Source: Candidatus Poribacteria bacterium
Lineage (GTDB): Bacteria > Poribacteria > WGA-4E > WGA-3G
NCBI GenBank assembly: GCA_012270795.1
Contig: JAAXHO010000111.1
Span: 1-32,234 of the forward strand
Direction: 5' to 3'
Length of the DNA stretch: 32,234 nucleotides
Made by a program: the position numbers and the translations under genes
The notes under the pieces: model-generated
The model's database searches: none
What the model saw: only the letters and a program-made list of their open reading frames with translations
What the model was told of the DNA's origin: nothing
In this document: piece by piece, positions 7,380 to 32,163 of the stretch
How the letters are laid out: the number at the start of each line of letters is the position of its first letter
Numbering within the stretch: the stretch's first letter is position 1

Positions 7380-7430
7380 GGTGTCAGTTGCTGGAAAAAT
7401 TACTTATTTTTGACAAACTCAACCGAACTG

Positions 7431-8264
7431 ATGTACTACTTAACACGGCAGATTGCCTTTGAAGCGTCTCATTACAATCGGATACCTGAATTGAGCGATG
7501 CCGAGAACGTTGCGTTGTTCGGTGCTTCGGCAAATCCGAATAGCCACGGTCATAATTACGTGCTTGAGGTGATGGTTAAGGGAGATATAGAGGCCGATGA
7601 TGGAATGGTCATCAACTTAACGACATTAGATGTGTTGTTAAAGTCTGAAGTTATTGCGAATTACGACCATAAACACCTAAACAGTCAACATCCGATTTTT
7701 GCTAAAAATCCGCATTTGCAACCGACTTGTGAAAACATCACGATTGAAATTTGGCAGCGATTTATCCCGTCTCTGACCGATGGATTGCTTCATCGGGTTC
7801 GGTTGTATGAGAGTTCAACAGTATTTGCTGATTACTATGGGGAGGGACAGATGGTTTATCTGACTAAGGTCTACGAGTTTAGCGCAGCGCACCGTTTACA
7901 TAGTCATCTGCTCAGTGATGCGGAGAATCGTGACATCTTTGGGAAGTGCAATAATCCTGCTGGACATGGACACAACTATGTGCTTGAAATCACTGTCAAA
8001 GGTGATGTAGATGTGAAAACTGGATTGGTAGCAGGATTGAACCAAATTGACGAGGTTGTTGAAAAGCAGGTTTTTGAGCGTTTTGATTACAAACACCTAA
8101 ATCTTGATACACCAGAATTTGAGAGGCTTAATCCGACATCTGAAAATTTCGTGAAAGTGCTTTGGGACGTATTAGAACCGAATTTACGACCCGTTGTTTT
8201 ACACCGTCTGCGTTTACGAGAAACACCCAAAAATCATTTTGATTACTATGGAGAACCCTCATAA
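7431..8264 (+). CDS. Tandem 6-pyruvoyl-tetrahydropterin synthase/QueD-like protein
   Basis: 277 residues from the ATG at 7431. A TTG at 7410 would add 7 residues; the ATG is preferred because the protein then starts MYYLT, matching the start of the second domain (MVYLT). Two PTPS/QueD domains in one chain. Such enzymes convert dihydroneopterin triphosphate to 6-pyruvoyl-tetrahydropterin or carboxytetrahydropterin with a zinc site. Zinc-type histidines are kept in both: His14, His39 and His41 in domain 1; His154, His179 and His181 in domain 2. The catalytic Cys is present only in domain 2 (FGKCNNP, Cys173); domain 1 has Ser33 (FGASANP). The Asp-His pair is present only in domain 1 (YDHKHLN, Asp79-His80); domain 2 has Asp219-Tyr220 (FDYKHLN). 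Substrate-binding Glu residues look kept in both (CEN, SEN). The gene is 3 nt from folE, so they are surely co-transcribed. Confidence 0.9.
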   Translation: MYYLTRQIAFEASHYNRIPELSDAENVALFGASANPNSHGHNYVLEVMVKGDIEADDGMVINLTTLDVLLKSEVIANYDHKHLNSQHPIFAKNPHLQPTCENITIEIWQRFIPSLTDGLLHRVRLYESSTVFADYYGEGQMVYLTKVYEFSAAHRLHSHLLSDAENRDIFGKCNNPAGHGHNYVLEITVKGDVDVKTGLVAGLNQIDEVVEKQVFERFDYKHLNLDTPEFERLNPTSENFVKVLWDVLEPNLRPVVLHRLRLRETPKNHFDYYGEPS

Positions 8265-8267
8265 TAT

Positions 8268-8876
8268 ATGAAAACTGAACAGGAAACTGAAGCTGATCAT
8301 AAGCAGAAAGTGTCTAATCAGACAGCGAATTTGGAATCTCTCTATACACAGATACTTGAGAATCTGGGCGAAGATCCAAATCGTGAAGGTTTAGTAAGAA
8401 CACCGCTGCGTGCTGCTAAAGCGTTATCTTTTTTGACGAGTGGTTATCATCAAGACATTGATAAGGTATTAAATAGAGCAATCTTTGACGAAGATTTTGA
8501 TGAGATGGTTATTGTCAAAGATATAGAGTTTTATAGTCTCTGTGAGCACCACATCCTACCTTTTTGGGGTAAGTGTCATGTCGGTTATCTTCCAGAAAAG
8601 CGGATTATTGGCTTAAGTAAAATCCCCCGGCTTGTTGACATGTTTGCACGGCGTTTGCAAGTTCAGGAACGTTTAACGCGCGAAATTGCTGAGGCATTGC
8701 AAACTGCCTTGGAGCCGACAGGTGTTGGGGTTGTAATAGAAGCACAACACATGTGCATGATGGCACGCGGTGTAGAAAAGCAAGCTGCAAAGATGACAAC
8801 AAATGCTATGCTTGGCACATTTCGGGAGGATAGTTCGACGCGTGCTGAGTTTCTGAGATGTATCCAAGTTTCATAA
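8268..8876 (+). CDS. folE: GTP cyclohydrolase I (type IA)
   Basis: 202 residues, the normal length. The enzyme opens and recyclises GTP to 7,8-dihydroneopterin triphosphate, the entry step to folate, biopterin and queuosine. Family signatures: [19 protein letters not shown] at 34-52, [10 protein letters not shown] with zinc ligands Cys92 and His95, [15 protein letters not shown], and HMCMMARG with the third ligand Cys163. The first 20 residues are charged and variable, as is usual. It starts 3 nt after the pterin synthase stop; its product is the substrate of that neighbour, which supports a functional pair. Confidence 0.97.
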
Positions 8877-9071: not shown

Positions 9072-9965
9072 ATGGCACAATACGATGAGATCGTGAAGCA
9101 TCTGATGCACCAGTACGCCGATGAGTTCGCCATGTTATCCTTTGGCACGCCCGATGTTCAAGTATTAGAGACACTTGACACCGAACAACATACGGTTAAG
9201 GTGCATCGCAATGACATAACATTGAAGGTGCTATGGCACAATGAGACAGTCCTGCTACATATAGAGGTGCAAACCGATGATAGCAGAGATAAACCGATGC
9301 CGTTGCGTGTCCTCGCTTATGCAAGTGAACTTCTGTTACGTCATGAACTTCCCGTATATTCAGTGGTGCTGTATTTAAGTCCGAAGGCTGGAGAGACTGA
9401 CCCTGGCGGCTATAGTTATGGAAATGATGTCTTTGGTTTGCATCATAAGTATCAGGTGATTCGATTAGCGAATTTAGAAGGTGAATCGTTTTTGGAAACA
9501 GCATCGGTTGGATTGTTACCGTTCATGCCTTTAATGAAACCGCCTACGGGCATGAACGCGGAAACATGGTTGCAAAAATGTGTTGAAAAGACAGAAGCTG
9601 CCCCAGTTGACAAACAAACGCAGGGAACTCTGTTGTTTGCGTTATCTCTGTTAGGTGGCTTAGTCCATGCCCCAAGTTTTTTAGATAAACTTATATTGGA
9701 GGAAATCATGCAAGAATCTCCTTATTACGATATCGTAATTCAGCGGGGTGTTGAACGTGGCGTTCAGCAAGGTTCCCGTGAAACATCCATCAAAAATATT
9801 CTATCTGTGCTAAACGAACGCTTTCCGCTAAGCGATGTGCAACGCGTAGAGCATGCGCTTGATTCTATTGAAGACCTTGATCGTTTGACAGAGCTGCTTC
9901 GCACATCAGTCAAGACCTCTGGTGTTGATGCATTCTTACAAGCCTTGAATGGATCGGAAACGTAA
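9072..9965 (+). CDS. Rpn/PDDEXK-type putative transposase-nuclease
   Basis: 297 residues. The N-terminal about 120 residues match the pattern of the Rpn (YhgA-like, PD-(D/E)XK) family, which are DNA endonucleases linked to RecA-independent recombination. The putative active-site set is Asp48 (VHRNDITLK) and Glu65-Val-Gln67 (LLHIEVQT), with Gln in place of the usual Lys, common in this family. RVLAYASELLLRH is the conserved helix after the core. The C-terminal region (220-290) is helical, with ERGVERGVQQGSRE-like repeats and a DUF4351-like tail (LSVLNERFPLSDVQRVEHALDS). It stands alone between consensus promoter and SDR, interrupting the pterin genes. Members are often present in many copies per genome. 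Confidence 0.85.
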   Translation: MAQYDEIVKHLMHQYADEFAMLSFGTPDVQVLETLDTEQHTVKVHRNDITLKVLWHNETVLLHIEVQTDDSRDKPMPLRVLAYASELLLRHELPVYSVVLYLSPKAGETDPGGYSYGNDVFGLHHKYQVIRLANLEGESFLETASVGLLPFMPLMKPPTGMNAETWLQKCVEKTEAAPVDKQTQGTLLFALSLLGGLVHAPSFLDKLILEEIMQESPYYDIVIQRGVERGVQQGSRETSIKNILSVLNERFPLSDVQRVEHALDSIEDLDRLTELLRTSVKTSGVDAFLQALNGSET

Positions 9966-10094: not shown

Positions 10095-10841
10095 ATGCAA
10101 AACATTACCAACAACACACTGCCATATAGTCTTAAAGGGAAAGTTGCTGTTATTACTGGTGCATCAAAGGGTATTGGCAAAGCGATTGCGTTTACCTTAG
10201 CCGAGGCAGAAGCGCGGGTTGTTTTAGCTGCGCGTACTCATGATGTTGTTGAAAAGGTCGCAGCGGATATTAGAGAATCAGGTGCGGATGCAATTGCTAT
10301 TCCAACTGATGTTACTGATGTTGACGCGGTGAAAAACCTAATCAAAAGCACATTGGACTCCTATCAAAAGTTGGATATTTTGATAAACAACGCAGGAAAC
10401 GGAATATTTGGGAACGTTACCAATTTTGATACGTCAGATTGGGACAGTGTCATCAATTCTAATTTAAAGGGGGTTTTTCTTTGCACTAAATATGCGCTGC
10501 CATATCTATTGGAACAGGATGGTGGACAAATAATAAACGTGTTGTCTATCGCTGCGAAAGTTGCTTTTCCAGCATCAGGTGCATATTGTGCAGCAAAAGC
10601 AGGTGCACTTGCTTTAACGAAGGTCCTAGCAGCTGAAGTACGAGAGCAGAACGTTCGAGTTACTGCGGTTTTACCCGGTTCCGTTGAAACACCGTTTTGG
10701 GATGATATTTCACAACATCCCGACTTTGAAAAGATGCTGAAACCTGAACATGTGGCGAATGTTGTTCTGTCTGTATGCCAACAACCGTTGGGTATGGTGA
10801 CTGAGGAAGTTGTTGTGATGCCGCCTCTTGGAATTTTGTAG
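10095..10841 (+). CDS. Short-chain dehydrogenase/reductase (SDR)
   Basis: 248 residues, classical SDR. Cofactor motif TGASKGIG at 21-28, the NNAG motif at 98-101, and the catalytic set Ser151, Tyr164 and Lys168 (YCAAK) are all present. NAD(P)-dependent reduction of a carbonyl is expected. An arginine-rich stretch after the second strand (AARTHDVVEKV) suits NADPH. The substrate is not set by sequence: 3-oxoacyl-ACP reductases and sepiapterin-type reductases both look like this. It is the third pterin-compatible gene within 3 kb of folE, which makes a pterin reductase role worth considering, but the family is too broad to claim it. No clear SD. It converges with the transporter genes. Confidence 0.88.
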   Translation: MQNITNNTLPYSLKGKVAVITGASKGIGKAIAFTLAEAEARVVLAARTHDVVEKVAADIRESGADAIAIPTDVTDVDAVKNLIKSTLDSYQKLDILINNAGNGIFGNVTNFDTSDWDSVINSNLKGVFLCTKYALPYLLEQDGGQIINVLSIAAKVAFPASGAYCAAKAGALALTKVLAAEVREQNVRVTAVLPGSVETPFWDDISQHPDFEKMLKPEHVANVVLSVCQQPLGMVTEEVVVMPPLGIL

Positions 10842-17121: not shown

Positions 17122-17928
17122 GTGAGTGAAGCACAACCGGAATATAAGACTACAATTAAAGAAGGTTTTTTTGTAGCAGATTGTGTCGAATTTATGCGCG
17201 ACATGGATGAGAATGTAGTTGATCTTACAGTTACATCCCCACCCTATGATAACCTCCGACACTATGACGGTTATTCTTTTGATTTTGAGAATATAGCACA
17301 TCAACTTTATAGGGTAACAAAAACTGGTGGCATTGTTGTTTGGGTTGTTGGCGATAAAATAAACGGGGGACGCACACTCACTAGTTTTCGACAAGGGATA
17401 TTTTTTCAAGAGATAGGTTTTCAGATGCACGATGTGATGATCTATCAAAAAAAGAATACTCCCTTTATGCGAAGCAACGCTTATACTAACTGCTATGAGT
17501 TTATGTTTGTCTTGTCAAAAGGAAAGCCTAACACATTCAATCCATTGAAAACGGAAACCGCAAGACACGGACCGGAGATGCTTGTCTATAACAAAGGTCC
17601 CGACGGTGTTAATAAAAAGGTTCGCAAAGAACTGAAAAAGGAAAAAACACGGACAAATATTTGGCAGTATGCTGTTGGTTTAGGTGGAACGACAAACGAC
17701 AGGGTTGCTTTCAAACATCCCGCTGTGTTTCCTGAAAAATTGGCAGAAGAACATATTTTGTCTTGGACAAATCCGGGCGATCTTGTATTTGATCCGATGT
17801 GTGGGAGTGGGACCACGGGCAAGATGGCTCTGATACACAATAGACATTTTATAGGCGTAGATATTTCCAAAGAGTATATTGCCATTTGTAAGGAACGTAT
17901 AGGGCTTCTGAATACCCAACTATTATGA
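17122..17928 (+). CDS. DNA methyltransferase (N4-cytosine/N6-adenine type) of a type II R-M pair
   Basis: 268 residues. GTG start with GGAGGA 8 nt upstream. The catalytic motif TSPPY is at 38-42, and the AdoMet-binding motif FDPMCGSGTTG is near 223-233, so motif IV precedes motif I as in beta-class amino-methyltransferases. SPPY suggests N4-cytosine methylation but N6-adenine cannot be excluded. A region with NTPFMRSNAYTNCYEFMFVLSKGK is typical of the family. The target recognition segment (about 140-200) is unique, so the recognition sequence is unknown. The stop codon overlaps the next gene's ATG by 4 nt (ATGA), so methylase and nuclease are translationally coupled. Protection of self DNA from the partner is the expected role. 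Confidence 0.92.
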   Translation: MSEAQPEYKTTIKEGFFVADCVEFMRDMDENVVDLTVTSPPYDNLRHYDGYSFDFENIAHQLYRVTKTGGIVVWVVGDKINGGRTLTSFRQGIFFQEIGFQMHDVMIYQKKNTPFMRSNAYTNCYEFMFVLSKGKPNTFNPLKTETARHGPEMLVYNKGPDGVNKKVRKELKKEKTRTNIWQYAVGLGGTTNDRVAFKHPAVFPEKLAEEHILSWTNPGDLVFDPMCGSGTTGKMALIHNRHFIGVDISKEYIAICKERIGLLNTQLL

Positions 17929-18506
17929 ACCCAAACGAATTTGTTATAGCTACTCAACCCGTCAATGGTATTGTTATTAATTCTGTTGGAATTATCAATT
18001 CAGTTGATGTGGATAAGGCACAAGTCTATTTTATCGGTAAGAATGAAGTTGTCATTGCCCCATTTGAATCACTCTCTCATGTAGATGTCGAAAATACGGG
18101 AAAGGGACATCCTCAAAAGATATGCAACATGTGTCATATATTGAAACCGATGTCAGATTTCGCCAGAAATCAGAATGATGCCAAAGGCAGACCAACACGA
18201 CGTCCGAGTTGTAACGAATGCAGAAAAACAATTGAAGGAAAGAATATGTCTGCTTCAGAAAAAAGAAGAATGATGGACAAACGTCCCAATGACAAAGCCA
18301 TTTTTGTGTGTCCTATATGTGAAAAGAGATCAATTGTTGGTGTAAATGCAAATATAGTTGCGGATCATGACCATGACACAGGAAAAGGACGTGAGTGGAT
18401 CTGCGACAGTTGCAACACGGGTTTAGGTAGATTCAAAGATGATATTGATATTTTGGAAAGGGTTATTGATTACCTAAAACGCTTTGAAGATGAGGCACCA
18501 GAATAA
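17925..18506 (+). CDS. HNH (Endonuclease VII/Hpy99I-like) restriction endonuclease
   Basis: 193 residues. Three parts are visible: a beta-rich N-terminal region (about 10-58, VIINS...), a first CXXC pair (Cys67/Cys70 and Cys96/Cys99) and a second CXXC pair (Cys129/Cys132 and Cys160/Cys163) that frames a beta-beta-alpha-metal (HNH) site, ADHDHDTGKG with Asp147-His148, then CNTGLGRF with Asn164. As I recall, the restriction enzyme Hpy99I has an antiparallel beta-barrel plus two zinc-binding repeats each with two CXXC motifs, and uses Asp148, His149 and Asn165, an almost identical layout. Tight coupling to the methylase supports a type II restriction role. Alternatively it could be a nicking or modification-dependent nuclease. 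Specificity is unknown. Confidence 0.85.
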   Translation: MNPNEFVIATQPVNGIVINSVGIINSVDVDKAQVYFIGKNEVVIAPFESLSHVDVENTGKGHPQKICNMCHILKPMSDFARNQNDAKGRPTRRPSCNECRKTIEGKNMSASEKRRMMDKRPNDKAIFVCPICEKRSIVGVNANIVADHDHDTGKGREWICDSCNTGLGRFKDDIDILERVIDYLKRFEDEAPE

Positions 18507-18901: not shown

Positions 18902-19912
18902 ATGTCCAAAAAATATGATATTCTTGCAATAGGTCGGAGTTCTATAGACCTATACTCCAATGATATTGGAAGTCCATTCCCTGAGATTTCGAGTTTTGGT
19001 GCGTTTGTTGGGGGGTGTCCTACGAACATCAGTGTAGGTACACGACGGCTCGGGCTTCGGTCAGCCCTTCTTACAGCGATAGGAGAAGATCCTGTTGGAG
19101 AATTTCTACTCAAATTTCTGAATGATGAAGGTGTTGAAACCCAATTCATCGTACATAAACCAGGACATCGTACAAGTGCTGTCGTTCTTGGGATCGAACC
19201 GCCTGATAAATTTCCACTTATCTATTACCGTGATAACTGTGCAGACATTGAACTCACTATTGATGATGTCACTGCTTCACCGATTGCGGAAACTCGCGCT
19301 GTGCTGATATCCGGAACGGGTCTCAGCAAAGAACCGAGTCGGAGTGCCACGCTCTATGGTGCGGAACAAGCACAAGCGATGGGATGTCTTGTTTTTCTGG
19401 ATTTGGATTTTCGCGCTGACCAGTGGCATGATCCACGTGCTTATGGAGTGAGTGTCCGTTCTACGTTGCGCAACGTCAACATTGCTATCGGAACGGAAGA
19501 GGAGATCAAGGCGGCATCCCTCACAGATATTTCACAGATGTCAATAGAACATTCGCAAATTTCAAACCCGAACATTGAAGGAGACATGAAAACTGCCATT
19601 GCAACGATACTTAATTTAGGACCGGAGGCGTTGGTTGTAAAACGTGGCAGTGATGGCGCGGACATATATTTAAACAGTGGGGAGGTCGTTCACGCACCGC
19701 CCTTTCCTGTTGAAATCTATAATACGTTGGGTGCAGGCGATGCGTTTGCAAGTGGTTTTATCTACGGGGTGTTAAATCGGTGGGGTTGGGAAAAATCGGC
19801 GCGCCTTGGTAATGCTATTGGTGCAATTGTCGTCACACGGCACGGTTGTGCTAACTTTATGCCTACAATGGCAGAAGTTAATGCTTTTGTTGCAGAACGC
19901 AGTGGATTATAG
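18902..19912 (+). CDS. iolC: PfkB-family sugar kinase, IolC-like (5-dehydro-2-deoxygluconokinase)
   Basis: 336 residues. Starts MSKKYDILAIGRSSIDLY, the usual IolC-type opening, with GGCPTNIS near 38-45 and the catalytic segment NTLGAGDAFASGF at 274-286 (Asp280 as base). The insert YYRDNCADIELT, with DFDLDFR-like LDLDFRADQW, is characteristic of 5-dehydro-2-deoxygluconokinases rather than ribokinase. IolC phosphorylates 5-dehydro-2-deoxygluconate in myo-inositol breakdown. An IolD-like gene lies 1.58 kb downstream, which supports the assignment. No strong SD or promoter is seen immediately upstream; the putative IS end is 12 nt from the start. Confidence 0.85.
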   Translation: MSKKYDILAIGRSSIDLYSNDIGSPFPEISSFGAFVGGCPTNISVGTRRLGLRSALLTAIGEDPVGEFLLKFLNDEGVETQFIVHKPGHRTSAVVLGIEPPDKFPLIYYRDNCADIELTIDDVTASPIAETRAVLISGTGLSKEPSRSATLYGAEQAQAMGCLVFLDLDFRADQWHDPRAYGVSVRSTLRNVNIAIGTEEEIKAASLTDISQMSIEHSQISNPNIEGDMKTAIATILNLGPEALVVKRGSDGADIYLNSGEVVHAPPFPVEIYNTLGAGDAFASGFIYGVLNRWGWEKSARLGNAIGAIVVTRHGCANFMPTMAEVNAFVAERSGL

Positions 19913-21265: not shown

Positions 21266-21490
21266 TTTCAACGAGTTATGATGTGTGAATGTAGAAACGT
21301 ATAAGATTGAACATTGCACCTCAAAAAATAAAGGTATATGGCAATCGGTATCTGATTATTTCAAAGGGGACACTCAACTTTATGAAACGGTATGCAGATG
21401 TTACAAAAGAATTCCAAATGGAGAAGTTCATTCCCGAACTTATAACACGGAACCATCTGTCCTATAGAAACAACGATAGGAGCTATGAAA
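21266..21490. other. Leader region of the iolD-like gene
   Basis: 225 bp without a convincing gene; two overlapping open frames begin at non-ATG codons and show no family. An AGGAG SD at 21478-21482 belongs to the downstream gene. No promoter close to consensus was found. Confidence 0.3.
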
Positions 21491-23359
21491 ATGAAAACCA
21501 GAGAACTAACAATGGGACAAGCCATAGTCCAATTTCTTAAAAACCAGTATGTTGAACGGGATGGACTTGAAAGAGCATTCTTTGCAGGTATGTTCGGCAT
21601 CTTTGGGCATGGAAATGTAGCAGGAATTGGTCAAGCACTGCACCAATACTCCGATGAATTCAGATTTTACCAGACACGTAATGAACAGTCTATGGTACAC
21701 ACTGCCGCTGCTTATGCAAAAATGTGTAACCGTCTCAGCACCTTTGCTTGCACTTCATCTATTGGCCCCGGCGCGACCAACATGCTAACAGGTGCTGCAG
21801 GGGCTACAATCAATAGACTCCCTGTGCTGCTATTGCCAGGGGATATTTTCTCTACACGTTTAGTTGCACCTGTTTTGCAGCAGTTAGAATCTCCCGAATC
21901 ACAAGATTTCTCTGTCAATGATTGTTTCAAACCTATTTCTAAATACTGGGACCGGATCAATCGTCCTGAACAGATCGTTACGGCACTGCCCGAAGCGATG
22001 CGCGTGCTCACTTCACAAGCGGAAACTGGCACCGTGACACTGGCTTTACCCCAAGATGTACAAGCAGAAGCTTATGAATATCCTGCACGATTATTTGAAA
22101 AACGTATCTATACTATTCCAAGACCACGCGCTGATAAGAGACTTCTCAAAACAGCAGTAGAATGGATTTCAAAAAGTGAACGCCCCTTAATTATCGCAGG
22201 TGGTGGTGTAATCTATAGTGAAGCAACAGCACAGTTAGCGAAATTTGTAGAGCAAACTGGTATCCCTGTCGGCGAAACTTTTGCGGGTAAAGGTTCATTA
22301 CGGTATGACCATCCGCAGAACCTTGGTGCAATTGGTGCAACTGGCACGCCAGGTGCAAATATCGTTGCGCGTGAAGCAGACTTAGTCATCGCCATCGGCA
22401 CACGTTTGGGCGACTTCACAACTGCTTCCAAAACTGCCTTTCAAAATCGGAATGTTCGGTTTATCAATATCAATATCGCTGAATTTGATGCTGCGAAACA
22501 TGCTGCACTCCCGTTAGTTGCAGACGCTCGTGTCACGCTCTCTGAGTTATCGGATGCAATTGGGGCATATCGAATTGATAAAGGGTATGCAGCCCAAATT
22601 GAAAAATATAGAGATGCTTGGGAAGAGGAGGTAGAACGACTGTACCACCTTGACAATAAACCACTGCCGAGTCAGAGCGAAGTTATCGGTGTAGTCAACG
22701 AGTTTTCTCGACCTGAAGATGTCGTTGTCTGTGCGGCAGGAAGTCTTCCTGGTGACCTACACAAGTTATGGCGGTCACGCAATCCAAAACAGTTCCATCT
22801 GGAATATGGGTACTCCTGTATGGGATATGAGATTGCAGGTGGATTAGGGATAAAAATGGCTGATCCCACACGTGATGTTTATGTCCTTGTTGGCGACGGT
22901 TCATATTTGATGTTAGCACAAGAAATCATTACCTCAATTCAGGAAAACTATAAGTTGATTATTGTGCTTATCGATAACGATGGACATAGCAGTATTAGTG
23001 GATTGTCGGAGGCAACGGGCGCGCAAGGATTTGCAACCCGATTCCGATACCGTGATGAAAACACGGGCGAACTACAAGGCGAAATATTACCTGTTGACCT
23101 TGCTGCAAACGCCAAAAGTCTCGGGGCAAATGTAATTGAAGCACCAACACCGCATGCACTCAAACTTGCATTGCAAGATGCTCAAGAATCTGATAAAACA
23201 ACAGTCGTCAAAATTGACGTTGATTTTGGCACGAGAGTCCCCCAATACGAATCTTGGTGGGACGTACCTGTCGCAGAAGTTTCAGAGGTAGACACCGCAA
23301 AACAGGCGTTCCAAGAATATCAGAAAGCGAAACAGAAAGAACGGTATTTTCTCGGGTAG
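21491..23359 (+). CDS. iolD: IolD-like TPP-dependent trihydroxycyclohexane-1,2-dione hydrolase
   Basis: 622 residues from the ATG at 21491, 8 nt after AGGAG; the ATG at 21485 is only 2 nt from it. Acetolactate-synthase-like fold with TPP domains: the activating Glu is at 65 (RNEQSMVHTAAA), the central domain spans about 200-340, and the Mg/TPP motif GDGS starts at 468 with Asp495-Asn496-Asp497 downstream. In inositol catabolism IolD opens 3D-(3,5/4)-trihydroxycyclohexane-1,2-dione to 5-deoxyglucuronate. The long tail and segments such as FGIFGHGNVAGIGQAL, SMGYE-like SCMGYEIAGGLG and WWDVPVAEVSE are IolD hallmarks that separate it from acetolactate synthase. It follows iolC by 1.58 kb. Confidence 0.93.
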   Translation: MKTRELTMGQAIVQFLKNQYVERDGLERAFFAGMFGIFGHGNVAGIGQALHQYSDEFRFYQTRNEQSMVHTAAAYAKMCNRLSTFACTSSIGPGATNMLTGAAGATINRLPVLLLPGDIFSTRLVAPVLQQLESPESQDFSVNDCFKPISKYWDRINRPEQIVTALPEAMRVLTSQAETGTVTLALPQDVQAEAYEYPARLFEKRIYTIPRPRADKRLLKTAVEWISKSERPLIIAGGGVIYSEATAQLAKFVEQTGIPVGETFAGKGSLRYDHPQNLGAIGATGTPGANIVAREADLVIAIGTRLGDFTTASKTAFQNRNVRFININIAEFDAAKHAALPLVADARVTLSELSDAIGAYRIDKGYAAQIEKYRDAWEEEVERLYHLDNKPLPSQSEVIGVVNEFSRPEDVVVCAAGSLPGDLHKLWRSRNPKQFHLEYGYSCMGYEIAGGLGIKMADPTRDVYVLVGDGSYLMLAQEIITSIQENYKLIIVLIDNDGHSSISGLSEATGAQGFATRFRYRDENTGELQGEILPVDLAANAKSLGANVIEAPTPHALKLALQDAQESDKTTVVKIDVDFGTRVPQYESWWDVPVAEVSEVDTAKQAFQEYQKAKQKERYFLG

Positions 23360-25771: not shown

Positions 25772-26119
25772 ATGGCAACAAAGGTTCGCTATAGAGATGG
25801 CGTAACAATCTTGGAACCATCAGGTAAAATTATGGGAACTGGTGTAACCGAGTTGAGAGAGGTAATAACAGCGGAAATAGATGCCTCTGATAAACCGAGA
25901 ATTTTGATTGACTTTGAAAAGGTCAATGTGATGGATAGTTCCGGCCTTGGCACACTCATGGGAGCACATGTTACAATCACTCGGCAAGGTGGCAGAGTGG
26001 GTGTAATCAATGTCGGCAAAAATATCAAAAACTTGATTGTGCGCAGCCGACTGGCAAGTATCTTTGAACATTTCACCTCTGAAGATGAAGCAGTTTCAAC
26101 GTTAGGCAGCGAATCCTAA
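25772..26119 (+). CDS. STAS-domain anti-sigma factor antagonist (SpoIIAA/RsbV-like)
   Basis: 115 residues, a single STAS domain. MDSSGLGTLMG at 54-64 holds the phospho-acceptor region; Ser57 aligns with the Ser phosphorylated in SpoIIAA. In partner switching the unphosphorylated form captures an RsbW-type kinase and frees a sigma factor or other partner. First gene after a consensus promoter, followed 43 nt on by a second STAS protein. The phospho-site is intact, so regulation by the kinase at 31231 and the phosphatase at 30077 is plausible. Confidence 0.9.
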   Translation: MATKVRYRDGVTILEPSGKIMGTGVTELREVITAEIDASDKPRILIDFEKVNVMDSSGLGTLMGAHVTITRQGGRVGVINVGKNIKNLIVRSRLASIFEHFTSEDEAVSTLGSES

Positions 26120-26161
26120 CATACATATTTTAGTTTTTGCAGCGACTTGGAGGCTGCACAA

Positions 26162-26527
26162 ATGGCAATCACGGTATCAGTACGAGACGGTGTACACATT
26201 TTTAAACTTGAAGGTAGAATCATAGCACCTGATGTACAAGAGTTCAATGACACCGTACAAAACACATTAGAACAGATAGAAGGGACACCCAAACTTGTTT
26301 TTGACTTCAAAGATGTCACCGGTATGGATAGTTCAGGGTTAGGTGTGCTCATGAAGATCTATGCTGATATACATCCTCGCGGTGGGACAATTGCTGTGAT
26401 AAATGTCAACAAACATGTCAAAAACCTAATTGTCATGGCAAGACTCATCACGGTTTTTCGGAACTTTGAGAGTGAAGAAGAAGCAGTTTGGTCACTGCTA
26501 AATCCCCCAACCGAACCACCTCAATAG
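26162..26527 (+). CDS. Second STAS-domain anti-sigma factor antagonist
   Basis: 121 residues from the ATG at 26162, 8 nt after GGAGG; an in-frame TTG at 26147 is not used. STAS domain with MDSSGLGVLMK, Ser58 being the expected phospho-site. About as long as its upstream neighbour and clearly homologous (GGxxxVINVxKxxKNLIVxxR shared), so the pair arose by duplication. Its C-terminal tail is proline-rich (NPPTEPPQ). It is 20 nt before the Usp gene, hence co-transcribed. Confidence 0.9.
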   Translation: MAITVSVRDGVHIFKLEGRIIAPDVQEFNDTVQNTLEQIEGTPKLVFDFKDVTGMDSSGLGVLMKIYADIHPRGGTIAVINVNKHVKNLIVMARLITVFRNFESEEEAVWSLLNPPTEPPQ

Positions 26528-26546
26528 TCCTATAAAGGAATGTCCT

Positions 26547-27308
26547 ATGATCAAGAATATTCTCGTTTCTATAGGCGATACAGATTACGAGAGGAATGCC
26601 TTTGATTACGCAGGACAACTCACTGTGCTTTTAGGAACGCATCTCTCCTGTGTATTTTTTCAGGACAGTTCCCATGGTGGCAGTGCAGAAGTCGCCGAAG
26701 CGGTGATGCGCCGCACCGAAAAGGAGTGTGAGCTTTATGATTTTTTAGATTACCACATAGAAACTGTGGCAAGTAACCCTCGACAAATGATCTGCCAAAA
26801 AGCACACTCCGCCGACTTAGTTGTAGTCGGACTCCCCGAAGAAATAAAAACTCGCGGATTAAAATTTATACAAACACAGATTGACGATGTCCTTGCACAT
26901 ATCACAAAACCTATCATTATCGTGCATGAACAGTGTACCTTATTACGTAAAATATTAGCTGTGCACCACGGGGATATCTACTCTGACAATGTACTCTCCC
27001 TCGCTGCAGAAATCGGAGAATTGACAAAAGCGAGTATCTTCGGACTTGCACTTGCAGACACCACCCAAGAAGCAATAGAGATTAAGCAGCAAATGGAAGC
27101 CTATCTACAATTCTACGATGTCTCCACCGATTTTCTCACTGCCCTCGGCTTTACCGTAACAAATATTTTGGAAAACGCAGAGGCAAATGATTGTGATCTG
27201 ATAGCCCTCAGCGCAAGTCATCACGGTAGATTATATGAGATGGTTTTCCAAAGCACCACCCAAACTGTCGTTAAACTTGCTAACCGTGCTGTACTGGTAA
27301 CTAGATAA
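26547..27308 (+). CDS. Tandem universal stress protein (UspA-like)
   Basis: 253 residues, two Usp-like Rossmann-type domains: MIKNILVSIGDTDYERNAFDYA opens the first and RKILAVHHGDIYSDNVLSLAAE the second (about 130-253). The C-terminal domain has GRLYEMVFQSTTQTVVKLANRAVLV, a variant of the G-X9-GS loop in ATP-binding Usp proteins; the first domain's loop is less clear. The family responds to starvation and oxidative stress. It sits between the STAS genes and the histidine kinase, 20 and 14 nt apart, so it belongs to the same operon. Confidence 0.82.
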   Translation: MIKNILVSIGDTDYERNAFDYAGQLTVLLGTHLSCVFFQDSSHGGSAEVAEAVMRRTEKECELYDFLDYHIETVASNPRQMICQKAHSADLVVVGLPEEIKTRGLKFIQTQIDDVLAHITKPIIIVHEQCTLLRKILAVHHGDIYSDNVLSLAAEIGELTKASIFGLALADTTQEAIEIKQQMEAYLQFYDVSTDFLTALGFTVTNILENAEANDCDLIALSASHHGRLYEMVFQSTTQTVVKLANRAVLVTR

Positions 27309-27321
27309 TGAGGAAACTCTT

Positions 27322-29601
27322 ATGGCAGTTGCCTCCGAGAATCTAAAAGACCTACAACTCCTTCAGATGTCATCGGATATGTTCGGATATATCCGATCCG
27401 ACGGTACATTGTTACCACTCAATCCCGCCTGGGAAATGACACTCGGTTACTCATGTGCAGAACTCCAAACGCGACAGTGGTTAAAACTCGTCCATCTTGA
27501 TGACCAACAAGTTACTTCTGAAAATATTGCAAAACTTAGTACAGAAAAAAACGGGACAGTCTCTTTTGAAAATAGACTTTTGTGTAGTAATGGTGAATAC
27601 GTAAGCCTTCTGTGGTTTGTAAAGGCAGACCCCAAAGACGCTCATTATTGTGTCGTAGTGCAAAATATTACAAGGCAAAAGCGACTTGAAGCAAAACTTC
27701 GTCAAAGCGAGACGCGATTCCAGCAATTAGCACAAACACATTTACAGGAAGGCGACTTTCTGCACACCCTCATGGACAATGCCCCCGATCACATATATTT
27801 TAAAGATAAAGAAAGCAAATTTATACGTATAAATCGTTCCCTTGCCAATCGCTTCGGACTCAAAAATCCCGCTGAGGCTATCGGGAAGAGTGATTTTGAT
27901 TTTTTCACGCGCGAGCATGCACAGCAAGCATATCAAGACGAAAGAACTGTCATTGAATCAGGAAAACCAATAGAGGGAAAACAGGAAAAAGAGACTTGGC
28001 CCGGCGGACAAGATACATGGGTTTCTACAACGAAAGTACCAATCCGAGATAGAAGTGGACGCATAAAAGGCACATGCGGTATCTCACGAGATATAACTGA
28101 ATACCATCACGCAGAACAAGCACTGCGAGATTCCGAAGCAAAATGGCGGTCATTGGTAGAAAGTGCTCCCGATATCATTTCAACTATTGACCTCAATTAT
28201 ACGCTGGATTTTATCAATAGAATACCAATTGGTGTTGACATCACGCAGGAAGAGGTACTCGGGAATAGTATCTTTGATTTCCTAACACAGGAACATCATG
28301 AAGGGTTTCGTAAGGCATGTCGAAAGGTTATTGAAACAGGTGAAGTCGCGGGTTATGAAATCCAAGGAAGACTCAGTAGAAACTGGTATTCATCTTGGAT
28401 AGGTCCCATTACACGTGATGGTGAAATCGTTGGTTTCGTTGTAACTTCGACAAATATTACGGATAGAAAACAAGCTGAAATTGAACTACAGGAAAGCGAA
28501 GAACGTTTTCGCCGAGCTGTCCTTAATGCCCCCCTTCCCATCATGATTCACGCCGAAAACGGAGATGTAATCCTCATTAGTCGAACATGGACAGAACTCA
28601 CCGGATATACTTCTGAAGACATGACCACAGTATCTAAATGGTTGACGCAAGCGAATAGCGATAAGAGCGATGAGATACAAGCATACCTCGGGCAGGTTAA
28701 TCAAGCTAAAGAACGAATCGCACCAACGCAATATGAAATTATAACAAAGACCGGGAAAAAGCAGATATGGGAATTTAGTTCATCACTACTTGGCGTGCAA
28801 CCGGATGGACAACGTATTATCATTAGCATGGCACTTGACATCACCGAAAGAATAAAAGCCGAACATGCTATGCAAAGTGCGAAAGAAACCGCAGAATATG
28901 CAAGCAGAGCGAAAAGTGATTTCCTCGCTAATATGAGTCATGAATTAAGGACGCCTTTGAATGCTATCATCGGATTCGCAGAGATACTAAGAGATGAACT
29001 TGTCGGTCCAATTAACGATGAACAGAAGGAATGCGTCAATGATATACGTTTTAGTGGGCAGCATCTATTGGAGATGATTAACGATATATTGGATCTGTCA
29101 AAGATTGAAGCTGGTAAAATGTTCTTACAACTGGAGGAATTTGCTATCGTTGATGCGGTTGAAGAAGTTAATGCAATCATCAATGCACTTGCAATGAAAA
29201 AGAACATTGAACTGACGCTAACAGGTCCAGAAAACGTAACAATTCAAGCAGATCGCGTAAAAATAAAGCAGATATTTTACAATTTGCTTTCAAATGCTGT
29301 AAAGTTCACACCTGAAGGGGGTAAAGTCACTACTCAACTCAAAATTACCCGGACCGATCTACACGTCAAAGTTATTGATACAGGAATAGGCATTGCAGAA
29401 GAAGATAAGATGAAACTTTTCGCACCATTTACACAGATCGACACATCCAAGTCAAGACAGTATGGTGGGACAGGCCTCGGTCTCGCGTTGACACAACGTT
29501 TGATTGAGTTACATGGGGGAGAAATTAGTGTCACAAGTGAAGAGGGGAAAGGCAGCACTTTCATTTTTAATATACCAACTACTCAACCGCAAAAAGCATA
29601 G
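27322..29601 (+). CDS. Multi-PAS hybrid-free sensor histidine kinase
   Basis: 759 residues with no signal peptide or membrane segment, so a cytoplasmic sensor. Four PAS/PAC domains in order, at about 10-120, 140-270, 270-395 and 395-525, then HisKA and HATPase_c. Phospho-acceptor His540 (MSHELRTPLNAI), N-box NLLSNAVKF (Asn658), G1 DTGIGI (Asp686) and G2 GGTGLGLAL (from Gly715). No fused receiver. The signal is unknown; the PAS stack suggests several small ligands or redox cues. It is likely to phosphorylate the receiver at 29684 or the receiver-phosphatase at 30077. Start ATG 14 nt after the Usp stop. Confidence 0.95.
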   Translation: MAVASENLKDLQLLQMSSDMFGYIRSDGTLLPLNPAWEMTLGYSCAELQTRQWLKLVHLDDQQVTSENIAKLSTEKNGTVSFENRLLCSNGEYVSLLWFVKADPKDAHYCVVVQNITRQKRLEAKLRQSETRFQQLAQTHLQEGDFLHTLMDNAPDHIYFKDKESKFIRINRSLANRFGLKNPAEAIGKSDFDFFTREHAQQAYQDERTVIESGKPIEGKQEKETWPGGQDTWVSTTKVPIRDRSGRIKGTCGISRDITEYHHAEQALRDSEAKWRSLVESAPDIISTIDLNYTLDFINRIPIGVDITQEEVLGNSIFDFLTQEHHEGFRKACRKVIETGEVAGYEIQGRLSRNWYSSWIGPITRDGEIVGFVVTSTNITDRKQAEIELQESEERFRRAVLNAPLPIMIHAENGDVILISRTWTELTGYTSEDMTTVSKWLTQANSDKSDEIQAYLGQVNQAKERIAPTQYEIITKTGKKQIWEFSSSLLGVQPDGQRIIISMALDITERIKAEHAMQSAKETAEYASRAKSDFLANMSHELRTPLNAIIGFAEILRDELVGPINDEQKECVNDIRFSGQHLLEMINDILDLSKIEAGKMFLQLEEFAIVDAVEEVNAIINALAMKKNIELTLTGPENVTIQADRVKIKQIFYNLLSNAVKFTPEGGKVTTQLKITRTDLHVKVIDTGIGIAEEDKMKLFAPFTQIDTSKSRQYGGTGLGLALTQRLIELHGGEISVTSEEGKGSTFIFNIPTTQPQKA

Positions 29602-29683
29602 TGCTTTACATCAAACGTTCCTACAGAAGATATGTCAATCTATTTCTATAATTCACTATAATGTCTTTGGGTAAAGGAGGCGT

Positions 29684-30084
29684 ATGTTGAGTACGGAGAG
29701 TCCGCAACCGATCTTAGTCATAGAAGACCAAGCGTTGAACCGAAAAGTTGTACGCATCCTCTTGCAATCCAGCGGGTATCAAGTGATCGAAGCGATCAAC
29801 GCAACGGAAGCACTTGCGGCTTTAGAAGAAACTGTCCCCGGCCTCATCCTAATGGACATCGCATTACCAGGAACAAGTGGAGAAGAATTAACCCGACAGA
29901 TAAAAACAAACCCAGATTGGGACAGTATCCCAATTATTGCCTTAACAGCCGCAGTCAGTCTGGTGATCGTGAAAGATTCATCAAAGCTGGATGTGACGAT
30001 TATATCAGCAAACCCATTGATACCCGAGCCCTCTTAGAACGCGTGGCACACTATCTCAAAGGAAATGCTACACATAATGCCTGA
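29684..30084 (+). pseudogene. CheY-like response regulator receiver with a one-base frameshift
   Basis: The frame from the ATG at 29684 (AAAGGAGG at 29673-29680, rather close) gives a normal receiver start: LVIEDQALNRKVV, phospho-Asp58 (LILMDIALPGTSGEE) and IIALTAA at 85-90. After Ala90 it drifts into nonsense and stops at 30037. From about 29959 another frame restores the family's C-terminus: SGDRERFIKAGCDDYISKP, then IDTRALLERVAHYLKG, ending at a TGA at 30082-30084. One extra base near 29954-29958 (for example GTCCAG in place of GTCAG) would join the two. This is either a true mutation or a sequencing/assembly error. If restored, the end would overlap the start of the next gene, as in a coupled operon. 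Confidence 0.85.
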
Positions 30085-31234
30085 AGCAGCAACGAAAATC
30101 CTTGTCGTCGACGATGAACCAAGAAACGTCAAAATCCTACAGATACAATTGCAAGCACGTGGATACGATGTCCTGACAGCAGGTGACGGTGCAGAAGCAC
30201 TACAAATTATCTCAAACGAACTACCAGATCTAATTCTATTAGATATCAATATGCCAAAAGTTGACGGTTTTGAAGTTGTTGAGAAAGTACGAGCAAATCA
30301 AAAGACAGAATTTATACCCATCGTTATGATAACTGCGTTGCGTGATACGCAAGAGAACCGCATTAAAGCTGTTGAAGCTGGGGCAGACGACTTTATAGAA
30401 AAACCATTTAATAGTTTTGAAGTATTAGCACGAATCAAATCCCTTCTACGTATAAAGCATTATCACGACACACTTGAAAAACACAATGCACGATTAGAGA
30501 CAGAGCTGCAAATGGCTCGCAGTGTTCAAGAGATTATAATTCCTCAAAACGGCACACAAGATATAGCAGGATTTCATATCGCATCCTATTGCTATCCTGC
30601 TCTGGCAGTCGGTGGAGATTTCTTTGATATTTGGGAAATCGATGAAAACCGGATAGGGGTAATTATCTCTGATGTGATGGGACACGGAGCTGCCGCAGCA
30701 CTTGTTACCGTATTTATTAAGACAGTCCTATCAGAATATCAAGAACACATAAAAGACGATCCTGCGCAACTCCTTCAAATCCTCAACACACGTTTCAGTG
30801 ACATTATTAGTTCACGGATTTTTATGTTCGCCACAGCATTCTGCGGAATCTTTAATCAGGCGAAAAAACAGCTCATCTGTGCTAATGCGGGGCATCCATC
30901 TCCGTTCTTACAACACGGCACACAGTCTGAGTGTGAACTGGTGACGAATAAGCAGACAGGAAACGGCTTGGGTATTCGGAAAGAATCTGTATACGAAAAC
31001 TGCTACTACCCGTTTGATGACTCAAGCAGGATATTTCTCTATACCGATGGTGTTTATGAGGTAAAAAATGTAAAAGGAGAGGAATTTACTGTAGAACAAC
31101 TTCAAAAGGTGGTATCTACGGCGCAACATAAAACACCAGAAAAACTTATCCAGAGTGTTTCTAACGCTATCGCGGAATTCAACAGTGCAGCCCCTAACGA
31201 GGATGACTTAACACTGATTGCAATCCAACGTTAA
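30077..31234 (+). CDS. Receiver-SpoIIE/PP2C phosphatase (RsbU/RsbP-like)
   Basis: 385 residues from the ATG at 30077, with AAAGGAA 12 nt upstream; an ATG at 30065 leaves no room for an SD. Receiver domain about 5-125 (VVDDEP, phospho-Asp56, Lys109 in EKPF), a coiled linker (about 130-155), then a SpoIIE/PP2C phosphatase domain with GGDFFD (Asp181) and DVMGHG (Asp199) metal sites. It would dephosphorylate STAS proteins on a phosphorylated-receiver signal. Last plus-strand gene of the signalling block; its end overlaps the convergent kinase gene by 4 nt. Confidence 0.93.
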   Translation: MPEAATKILVVDDEPRNVKILQIQLQARGYDVLTAGDGAEALQIISNELPDLILLDINMPKVDGFEVVEKVRANQKTEFIPIVMITALRDTQENRIKAVEAGADDFIEKPFNSFEVLARIKSLLRIKHYHDTLEKHNARLETELQMARSVQEIIIPQNGTQDIAGFHIASYCYPALAVGGDFFDIWEIDENRIGVIISDVMGHGAAAALVTVFIKTVLSEYQEHIKDDPAQLLQILNTRFSDIISSRIFMFATAFCGIFNQAKKQLICANAGHPSPFLQHGTQSECELVTNKQTGNGLGIRKESVYENCYYPFDDSSRIFLYTDGVYEVKNVKGEEFTVEQLQKVVSTAQHKTPEKLIQSVSNAIAEFNSAAPNEDDLTLIAIQR

Positions 31235-31677
31235 CCTCTTTCTGTTTTTCCATCTCTATAAAATATCGCGGTTACATCTGTACCGCCAACCGCATTCGCT
31301 TGTAACGTATGAACATCCGCAAGACATTCTATGAGGTATAAACCGTGCCCCCTCTCACCTGTCGGGGAACGTTGTGCCTGAATCTCTGCAAGTTTGTCAG
31401 GTATTAACCAATCTTGCGGACCCTTCCCACCTTTATCTCTAACGACTATCTCAAGTGCATGTGGGGCCACTGAAATTCGCAATTGAATGCCGCATGTTAC
31501 ACATTTAGAACCGTGATAAACAGCGTTGCTACATATCTCATCAAGAGCGAGTTGAATATCTGCTATACGTTTTTTCGGAAATTTGAGTGTTTCAGATAAC
31601 TTCCCAATAAATGCACGTACCGGTTCAAGATAATACACATCACTCGGTACTTTCAACTCAATGTGGGTTTTCTCCAT
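31231..31677 (-). CDS. RsbW/SpoIIAB-like anti-sigma serine kinase
   Basis: 148 residues, GHKL ATPase fold. N-box DEICSNAVYHG (Glu47, Asn51), G1 VRDKGGKG (Asp81), and GERGHGLYLI at 107-116. A Cys-X-X-Cys (CVTC at 59-62) lies between N-box and G1, unusual for RsbW and possibly metal- or redox-linked. Such kinases bind a sigma factor and phosphorylate the STAS antagonist. Downstream of the STAS gene at 31708 on the same strand, 30 nt apart, so likely co-transcribed as an antagonist-kinase pair. Confidence 0.88.
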   Translation of the reverse strand: MEKTHIELKVPSDVYYLEPVRAFIGKLSETLKFPKKRIADIQLALDEICSNAVYHGSKCVTCGIQLRISVAPHALEIVVRDKGGKGPQDWLIPDKLAEIQAQRSPTGERGHGLYLIECLADVHTLQANAVGGTDVTAIFYRDGKTERG

Positions 31678-31707
31678 GGGGTAACACCAGTTTTTTCAAG
31701 GCATTAA

Positions 31708-32052
31708 CTAAAATGCTGCAATTGCGCTCTTCTCATTCTCATAAATCTCAACAACGCTGGATGCTCCTATGAGATTGAATGTTCGTGTGAGTGTTGACGC
31801 TAAATTGCAGAGTTTGAGATCACCATCGTTTTGACGAAGCCGCTTTGCAATGCCAACTAACGTCCCTACTGCCGTACTGTTGATGTGGTTAACTTCGCTA
31901 AAATTCACAACAACTTTGTCCACCTTTTCTGACAGAAGCCTTTCCAGAACCCTGCGCAAGTCAGAGGCAGCGTAGCTGCTCAAATCTGTCTTTACATCTA
32001 TGATTTTGATATCCGCATTCTCTCGAATCGTCATAAATTCGGTTCCATTCAT
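31708..32052 (-). CDS. STAS-domain anti-sigma factor antagonist (RsbV-like), third copy
   Basis: 114 residues from the ATG at 32052, with an AGGTGG-type SD about 5 nt upstream; a GTG at 32061 has none. STAS domain with HINSTAVGTLVG, where Thr60 takes the place of the phospho-Ser, as in threonine-using members. More divergent from the pair at 25772-26527. Paired with the kinase gene that follows it, it is the most likely direct partner of that kinase. Confidence 0.85.
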   Translation of the reverse strand: MNGTEFMTIRENADIKIIDVKTDLSSYAASDLRRVLERLLSEKVDKVVVNFSEVNHINSTAVGTLVGIAKRLRQNDGDLKLCNLASTLTRTFNLIGASSVVEIYENEKSAIAAF

Positions 32053-32163
32053 AAAAACCACCTTCCGTAATAAGAATCCGTATTTATATTTTAGTTTAAA
32101 TACGAAAAAAAATCAAGCATTTTTTGAATCAACAGCAGAGGTATCCATTTGTCGAGTTTTGTT

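Follow-up and report, generated by a model that had tools for sequence, protein, structure and literature searches.

The window analyzed here, a stretch of 32,234 nucleotides from a sponge-associated Candidatus Poribacteria bacterium, contains a gene for a tandem PTPS protein with two domains, D1 and D2 (Table 1), and the question raised by this locus is how catalysis could be sustained when the Cys-Asp-His triad is incomplete in each domain (D1 lacks the Cys, D2 the His) and complete only across both. PF01242 was matched twice by the protein in a Pfam profile search (E = 3.8e-56) and was the only Pfam family matched, the QueF family not being among the matches. The protein also scored above the cut-off of TIGR00039 (143.2 versus 125.5 bits); for the QueD equivalog TIGR03367, the 112.5 bits recorded against a cut-off of 89.25 are a sum over two domains. 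An alternative start at a TTG codon (position 7410) is possible. D1 and D2 are identical at 60 of 135 positions. When both were aligned to rat PTPS, where the corresponding positions are 42, 88-89, 23/48/50 (zinc histidines) and 133 (Glu), the position check agreed with what the first-pass annotation had read from the letters: D1 has Ser33 and keeps Asp79-His80, D2 keeps Cys173 and has Asp219-Tyr220, and the zinc histidines are intact in both. The pterin-anchoring Glu is likewise present in both domains (E127 and E264). Within COG0720, PTPS-II is marked by the motif CxxxxxHGH and PTPS-I (QueD) by CxxxHGH (PMC5041015). The spacing in the tandem protein is that of CxxxxxHGH and not that of QueD; D2 carries the PTPS-II motif (C173-NNPAG-HGH), and D1 departs from it at S33.

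An in-frame ATG is located at the start of D2, with a ribosome-site-like GGGAGGGACAG upstream (7840-7853). This ATG is kept in 51 distinct poribacterial sequences, with Val in a few, and 31 of these 51 have a GGAG/GAGG/AGGA core upstream of it. It may be a fusion scar or a route to separate synthesis of D2.

Table 1. Positions of the tandem PTPS gene, its residues and its pathway neighbors within the window
Feature	Position	Strand	Basis
Tandem PTPS gene, 277 aa + stop	7431..8264	+	Open ORF, two PF01242 matches, AlphaFold2
Domain 1 (D1; alpha-type, putative Asp-His donor), Cys lost	7431..7847	+	PF01242, motif alignment; groups with Acidobacteriota first genes
D1 zinc histidines H14, H39, H41 (first to last codon)	7470..7553	+	Alignment, position check
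Ser33 codon at catalytic Cys position (rat Cys42), motif FGASANP	7527..7529	+	Alignment to rat PTPS
Asp79-His80 codons (rat Asp88-His89), motif YDHKHLN	7665..7670	+	Invariant in 187 first partners
Domain 2 (D2; beta-type, putative Zn/Cys/Glu carrier), Asp-His lost	7848..8261	+	PF01242, TIGR00039, 3i2b match
D2 zinc histidines H154, H179, H181 (first to last codon)	7890..7973	+	Alignment, position check
Cys173 codon (rat Cys42), motif FGKCNNP	7947..7949	+	Invariant in 187 second partners
Asp219-Tyr220 codons at Asp-His position, motif FDYKHLN	8085..8090	+	Alignment, position check
Glu264 codon, pterin anchor (rat Glu133)	8220..8222	+	Alignment
folE, GTP cyclohydrolase I, makes PTPS substrate	8268..8876	+	PF01227 (E = 1.7e-75); TIGR00063 above cut-off
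SDR, sepiapterin-reductase-like by context only	10095..10841	+	PF00106

Neither domain looks capable of catalysis by itself and, judging from the residues retained in homologs, it is highly probable that each pair of domains forms one composite site, to which D2 would bring zinc, Cys and Glu and D1 would bring Asp-His. An ancestral homo-oligomeric site of the PTPS-II type would have been divided between two paralogous T-fold units after duplication. D2 would hold zinc through H154, H179 and H181, anchor the pterin through E264 and supply the catalytic Cys173, and D1, as the neighboring T-fold unit in the same chain, would provide the Asp79-His80 proton relay; the other class of site, composed of the D1 zinc site and the D2 Asp-Tyr, would be catalytically dead. 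The same arrangement would be found as two adjacent genes (alpha/beta), as is usual in Acidobacteriota, as unlinked genes in some lineages, and fused in Poribacteria. Against this proposal, the zinc ligands of D1 persist in the window's genus, though no catalysis would be expected there.

To survey conservation within the phylum, 40 relatives were searched with PF01242 and 85 genomes of the phylum with the protein, and every domain was aligned to rat PTPS for the residue calls. The tandem was present in most poribacterial genomes searched, and a MAG record of the same phylum (L039) has a protein that is 96% identical. All 73 distinct poribacterial tandems lacked the D1 Cys, kept the D1 Asp-His and kept the D2 Cys. 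The D2 Asp-His was lost in 60 of the 73, and the other 13 had a full D2 set. The window's genus, like most of its family, has Asp-Tyr at this position, and one genome of another family has Asp-Phe; more distant tandems have Asp-Tyr, Gly-Phe, His-Tyr or Arg-Asn. From this distribution, the loss of the D1 Cys seems to be the older event, and the D2 Asp-His was lost more than once. One poribacterium has a highly diverged second tandem (L038, the second PTPS locus of G019), in which the D1 zinc histidines are lost and the D1 Asp-His is kept, with D2 retaining its Cys and showing Arg-Asn at the Asp-His position. In another genome (G034, locus L005), the tandem is broken into two overlapping frames of 174 and 152 amino acids, either by a real frameshift or by an assembly error.

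Pairs of separate genes showed the same tendency. A contig scan revealed two MAGs (L097 and L106, labeled Terriglobia and Acidimicrobiia) in which two PTPS genes lie side by side next to folE; in each, the first gene lacked the Cys and kept Asp-His, and the second kept the Cys with Asp-His no longer intact. In the class of L097, 213 of 250 genomes had a match, almost always two per genome, and since the class search for the second MAG gave genomes of that same class again, its Acidimicrobiia label is probably wrong. In L097 and L106 the two genes almost or truly overlap, and translations read from the adjoining DNA indicated a TlpA-like thioredoxin and a GlcD-like oxidase gene. Among 114 distinct pairs, both partners were intact in 75, only the second Asp-His was missing in 28, only the first Cys was missing in 6, and both had been lost in 5; no loss of the first Asp-His or of the second Cys was found among these 114. 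Together, the fusions of Poribacteria and the pairs of Acidobacteriota, most of the latter encoded by neighboring separate genes, provided 187 distinct pairs. The first partner kept Asp-His in every one of the 187 and had lost its Cys in 84, and the second partner kept its Cys in 187 of 187 and lacked an intact Asp-His in 93. Both complementary losses were present in 65 of 200 pairs, for which a same-chain rule would leave no complete site.

These counts bear on the possibility that D2 is the sole enzyme and is assembled with neighboring D2 units, with Tyr220 or the His of KHLN replacing His89 and with D1 reduced to a structural pseudo-domain. Such an enzyme would be in keeping with the 13 poribacterial tandems that have a full D2, with the His that D2 retains two residues on (FDYKHLN) and with Phycisphaerae tandems, where D2 is intact beside a degenerate D1. 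However, the second-partner His89 was replaced by Y, F, Q, E, L, M, T, C or R, Asp88 was also lost in some, and the KHLN His was missing in many second partners; the first-partner Cys was replaced by A, S, T, N, L, E, G, K, V or M. This diversity makes the replacements look like losses and not like a new shared residue, and a compensating D2 residue, whether Tyr220 or the neighboring His, was rejected for that reason. Moreover, Asp-His in 187 of 187 first partners is not what one would expect of a D1 with a structural role alone, and D1-type Asp-His persists even after losses of the Cys, a zinc ligand and the Glu. Given the invariance of the D1 Asp-His, this single-chain alternative is disfavored, and we regard it as improbable.

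A second alternative is relaxed decay, in which the losses would be random and their reciprocity a matter of coincidence or shared ancestry. Many of the poribacterial sequences are close kin, by which their count overstates independence, as this alternative would have it. Changes were counted on a tree of concatenated pairs from which the three catalytic columns had been left out; it was a fast tree with many close relatives and gave approximate numbers, namely, about 24 changes in the second Asp-His, 4 in the first Cys, and none in either the first Asp-His or the second Cys. When the Bacillaceae were added, the second Asp-His changed 24 times, the first Asp-His once, the first Cys 5 times and the second Cys not at all. 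With an equal chance for either partner, 24 versus 1 would arise with a two-sided probability of about 1.5e-6. Although evolution is faster in the second partner, this does not account for why it never loses its Cys. Random decay was rejected on the basis of the pair counts and the tree changes, and we give it practically no credence.

Unlinked partners also argue against decay, as they bore out the prediction of a composite site. A search of the phylum of L097 gave genomes with a lone PTPS of the second type, and five of them were examined for a partner. The lone copies kept the Cys and had His89 replaced by Arg or Cys (DR, ER or DC), and all five genomes contained, as predicted, an unlinked PTPS with Asp-His intact and no Cys. 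In these unlinked donors the zinc ligand His48 was replaced by Tyr, His23 was replaced by Arg in two, and Glu133 was lost where the alignment covers it. An adjacent pair (L356) has a donor without the Cys and His48 in which Glu133 is kept, and fused Acidobacteriota proteins (L305/L306 and L330-L332) have lost the D1 Cys, the D1 Glu133 and the D2 Asp-His and keep the D1 Asp-His. In a tree with moderate support values and a short alignment, the Asp-His-donor chains, the poribacterial D1 and the Acidobacteriota first genes formed one clade (SH-aLRT 89), with the long-branched D1 of L307 outside it. Since the lone Cys-only chains grouped with the single PTPS of Bacteroidota and not with Acidobacteriota second genes, their pairing with an unlinked donor may have a separate origin. 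The first-pass annotation had raised the matter of whether other tandem PTPS genes share the reciprocal pattern; the pair counts, the tree and the unlinked partners all indicated reciprocal losses with a fixed direction, as opposed to random ones. Besides being old, the pattern exists also as two separate genes. A composite site is strongly supported by evolution, from which we infer that Cys173 and His80 would come into contact.

The rule has exceptions. Eight tandems of Bacillaceae (Robertmurraya and relatives) kept both Cys residues and the D2 Asp-His and had Asp-Gly or Asn-Gly in D1, retaining one complete set, the D1 Cys with the D2 Asp-His; as their D1 groups with the poribacterial D1, the opposite half was lost in the same architecture. 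In Phycisphaerae tandems D1 is wholly degenerate and D2 is intact, a pattern that fits D2 as sole enzyme, and D2 apparently works there without D1. Two proteins (the second gene of G590; G709) are without both Cys and Asp-His. These exceptions confine the rule to the Acidobacteriota-Poribacteria branch. The earlier suggestion that half of the sites are active holds as a rule in that one large branch but, given the Bacillaceae and Phycisphaerae tandems, not everywhere. Freedom of the other half to diverge is seen in other lineages, but in the window's genus the dead half has hardly diverged, D1 keeping both its zinc ligands and its Glu.

An AlphaFold2 model of the two-domain chain (pLDDT 94; pTM 0.88) placed the last strand of D1 at residues 131-135 and the first strand of D2 at residues 141-154. 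In Foldseek searches, one domain of the model matched human PTPS 3i2b (TMt 0.96) and showed the beta-beta-alpha-alpha-beta-beta unit of the T-fold, and the whole chain aligned end to end, weakly, with uricases (about 260 to 310 columns, TM about 0.4 to 0.47, about 10% identity). The pTM of the chain and its alignment with uricase, itself a chain of two T-folds, count in favor of the composite site. In the known PTPS ring, described in structure papers of 1994-1995, subunits are joined through neighboring antiparallel strands, and the short D1-D2 linker of the model would suit such joining. The strand order suggests that the Asp-His loop of the preceding unit (D1) reaches the zinc site of the next (D2). 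In the animal enzyme, Cys42 and Glu133 reportedly come from one subunit and His89 from its neighbor. The statement in the first-pass annotation that the animal triad is formed across subunits is in line with the title of Burgisser et al. 1995, as cited in PMC7546909, which names an intersubunit catalytic triad motif in PTPS. The known ring has three subunits and cannot strictly alternate two kinds, so either the assembly differs, being a four-unit ring or a dimer like that of QueF, or the three-fold ring is kept with only some interfaces active. In our judgment, the chances are even that the Acidobacteriota and Poribacteria share an obligate alpha/beta PTPS branch. Its alpha unit would serve essentially to donate Asp-His, some lineages having lost from it the Cys, a zinc ligand and the pterin anchor. 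Its assembly would not be three-fold and might consist of alpha-beta pairs like those of bimodular QueF or of uricase-like four-unit rings.

The tandem protein was compared with known systems. It has the fold, the residues and, in D2, the CxxxxxHGH motif in common with PTPS-II of COG0720 and with the animal enzyme (rat 1b66/1gtq, human 3i2b). Every subunit of the animal homohexamer has a complete set, however, whereas the domains of the tandem are unequal and neither holds the whole triad. Two T-fold domains per chain also occur in the bimodular enzymes uricase and GTP cyclohydrolase IB, which differ from the tandem in chemistry. Bimodular QueF, the NADPH-dependent preQ0 reductase of Vibrio cholerae and Escherichia coli, likewise comprises two tandem T-folds in about 280 amino acids, and its site is interdomain, the N-terminal module having lost the Cys that the C-terminal module keeps (PMC5372742). 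This precedent is the best backing for the inferred reach of D1 to the D2 zinc site. By sequence, complementary catalytic residues are divided between the two modules of the tandem, which is PTPS by membership and would work like bimodular QueF. The two differ in enzyme and reaction, the PTPS split also occurs as separate genes, and the QueF homodimer of V. cholerae has no tunnel. In the metformin hydrolase MetCaCb, adjacent paralogous genes are both required for activity (PMC11271267); there, a metal-free pseudoenzyme is paired with a partner that holds the catalytic center, whereas PTPS pairs have their catalytic residues distributed over both partners. The open-licence literature searched contained no account of a PTPS that is split or in tandem. 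If the proposal is true, the pairs present one active site divided between duplicated subunits of a well-studied cofactor enzyme, both as genes and as fusions, with QueF as a separate case. They would also offer a system for how homomers turn into obligate heteromers, from both partners intact through one loss and full complementary loss to a partner with Asp-His only. For annotation, profile pipelines would label either half as a full PTPS or QueD and motif rules would label either half as inactive, and both would probably be wrong.

The gene neighborhood suggests a pathway of the tetrahydrobiopterin type, which folE, directly downstream of the tandem gene, and the SDR would fit. The SDR is 39% identical to the one beside the Robertmurraya tandem, and the tandem gene, folE and SDR are contiguous in another poribacterium (L301). 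Between folE and the SDR in the window is a 297-amino-acid ORF (9072-9965) without a Pfam match; by eye it looks like Rpn/transposase-associated nucleases, and its insertion may have split the operon. The most likely role of the tandem, together with folE and the SDR, is the conversion of dihydroneopterin triphosphate to a 6-pyruvoyl-type tetrahydropterin. This genome has pterin carbinolamine dehydratase (PF01329), and no BH4-dependent hydroxylase (PF00351) was found in it; among 10 genomes sampled, PF00351 occurred in 3, all with the unfused pair. QueC is also present (G000 contig C141, locus L297:8337-9047; TIGR00364 above cut-off), and no PTPS besides the tandem was found in this 95%-complete genome, so the tandem may double as QueD and preQ0 synthesis may rely on it. 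With no PF00351 and a possible QueD role, the product is less certain than the split of the site. A remaining alternative is that 6-pyruvoyl tetrahydropterin is no longer made and the altered sites run another pterin reaction, as COG0720 subfamilies with other motifs (PTPS-I, PTPS-III) do (PMC5041015). The missing hydroxylase and the D1 zinc ligands and Glu kept without a Cys would agree with this, but the D2 motif is that of PTPS-II, the D2 Cys is never lost, the neighbors folE and SDR recur beside the Robertmurraya tandem, and biopterin hydroxylase does occur among the genomes with unfused pairs; we consider another reaction very unlikely, even less probable than D2 acting by itself.

Other genes in the window were noted. 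Translations read at 17122-18506 indicated a predicted DNA methyltransferase followed, with a 4-base overlap, by an HNH/endonuclease VII-like zinc-finger protein, which could be a small restriction-modification pair. A PfkB sugar kinase (18902-19912) and a TPP enzyme (21485-23359) are possibly IolC- and IolD-like inositol degradation genes. The translations at 25772-32061 indicated a cluster with STAS-domain-like anti-anti-sigma proteins, a PAS histidine kinase and response regulators, together with a PP2C-type phosphatase and an anti-sigma-like kinase.
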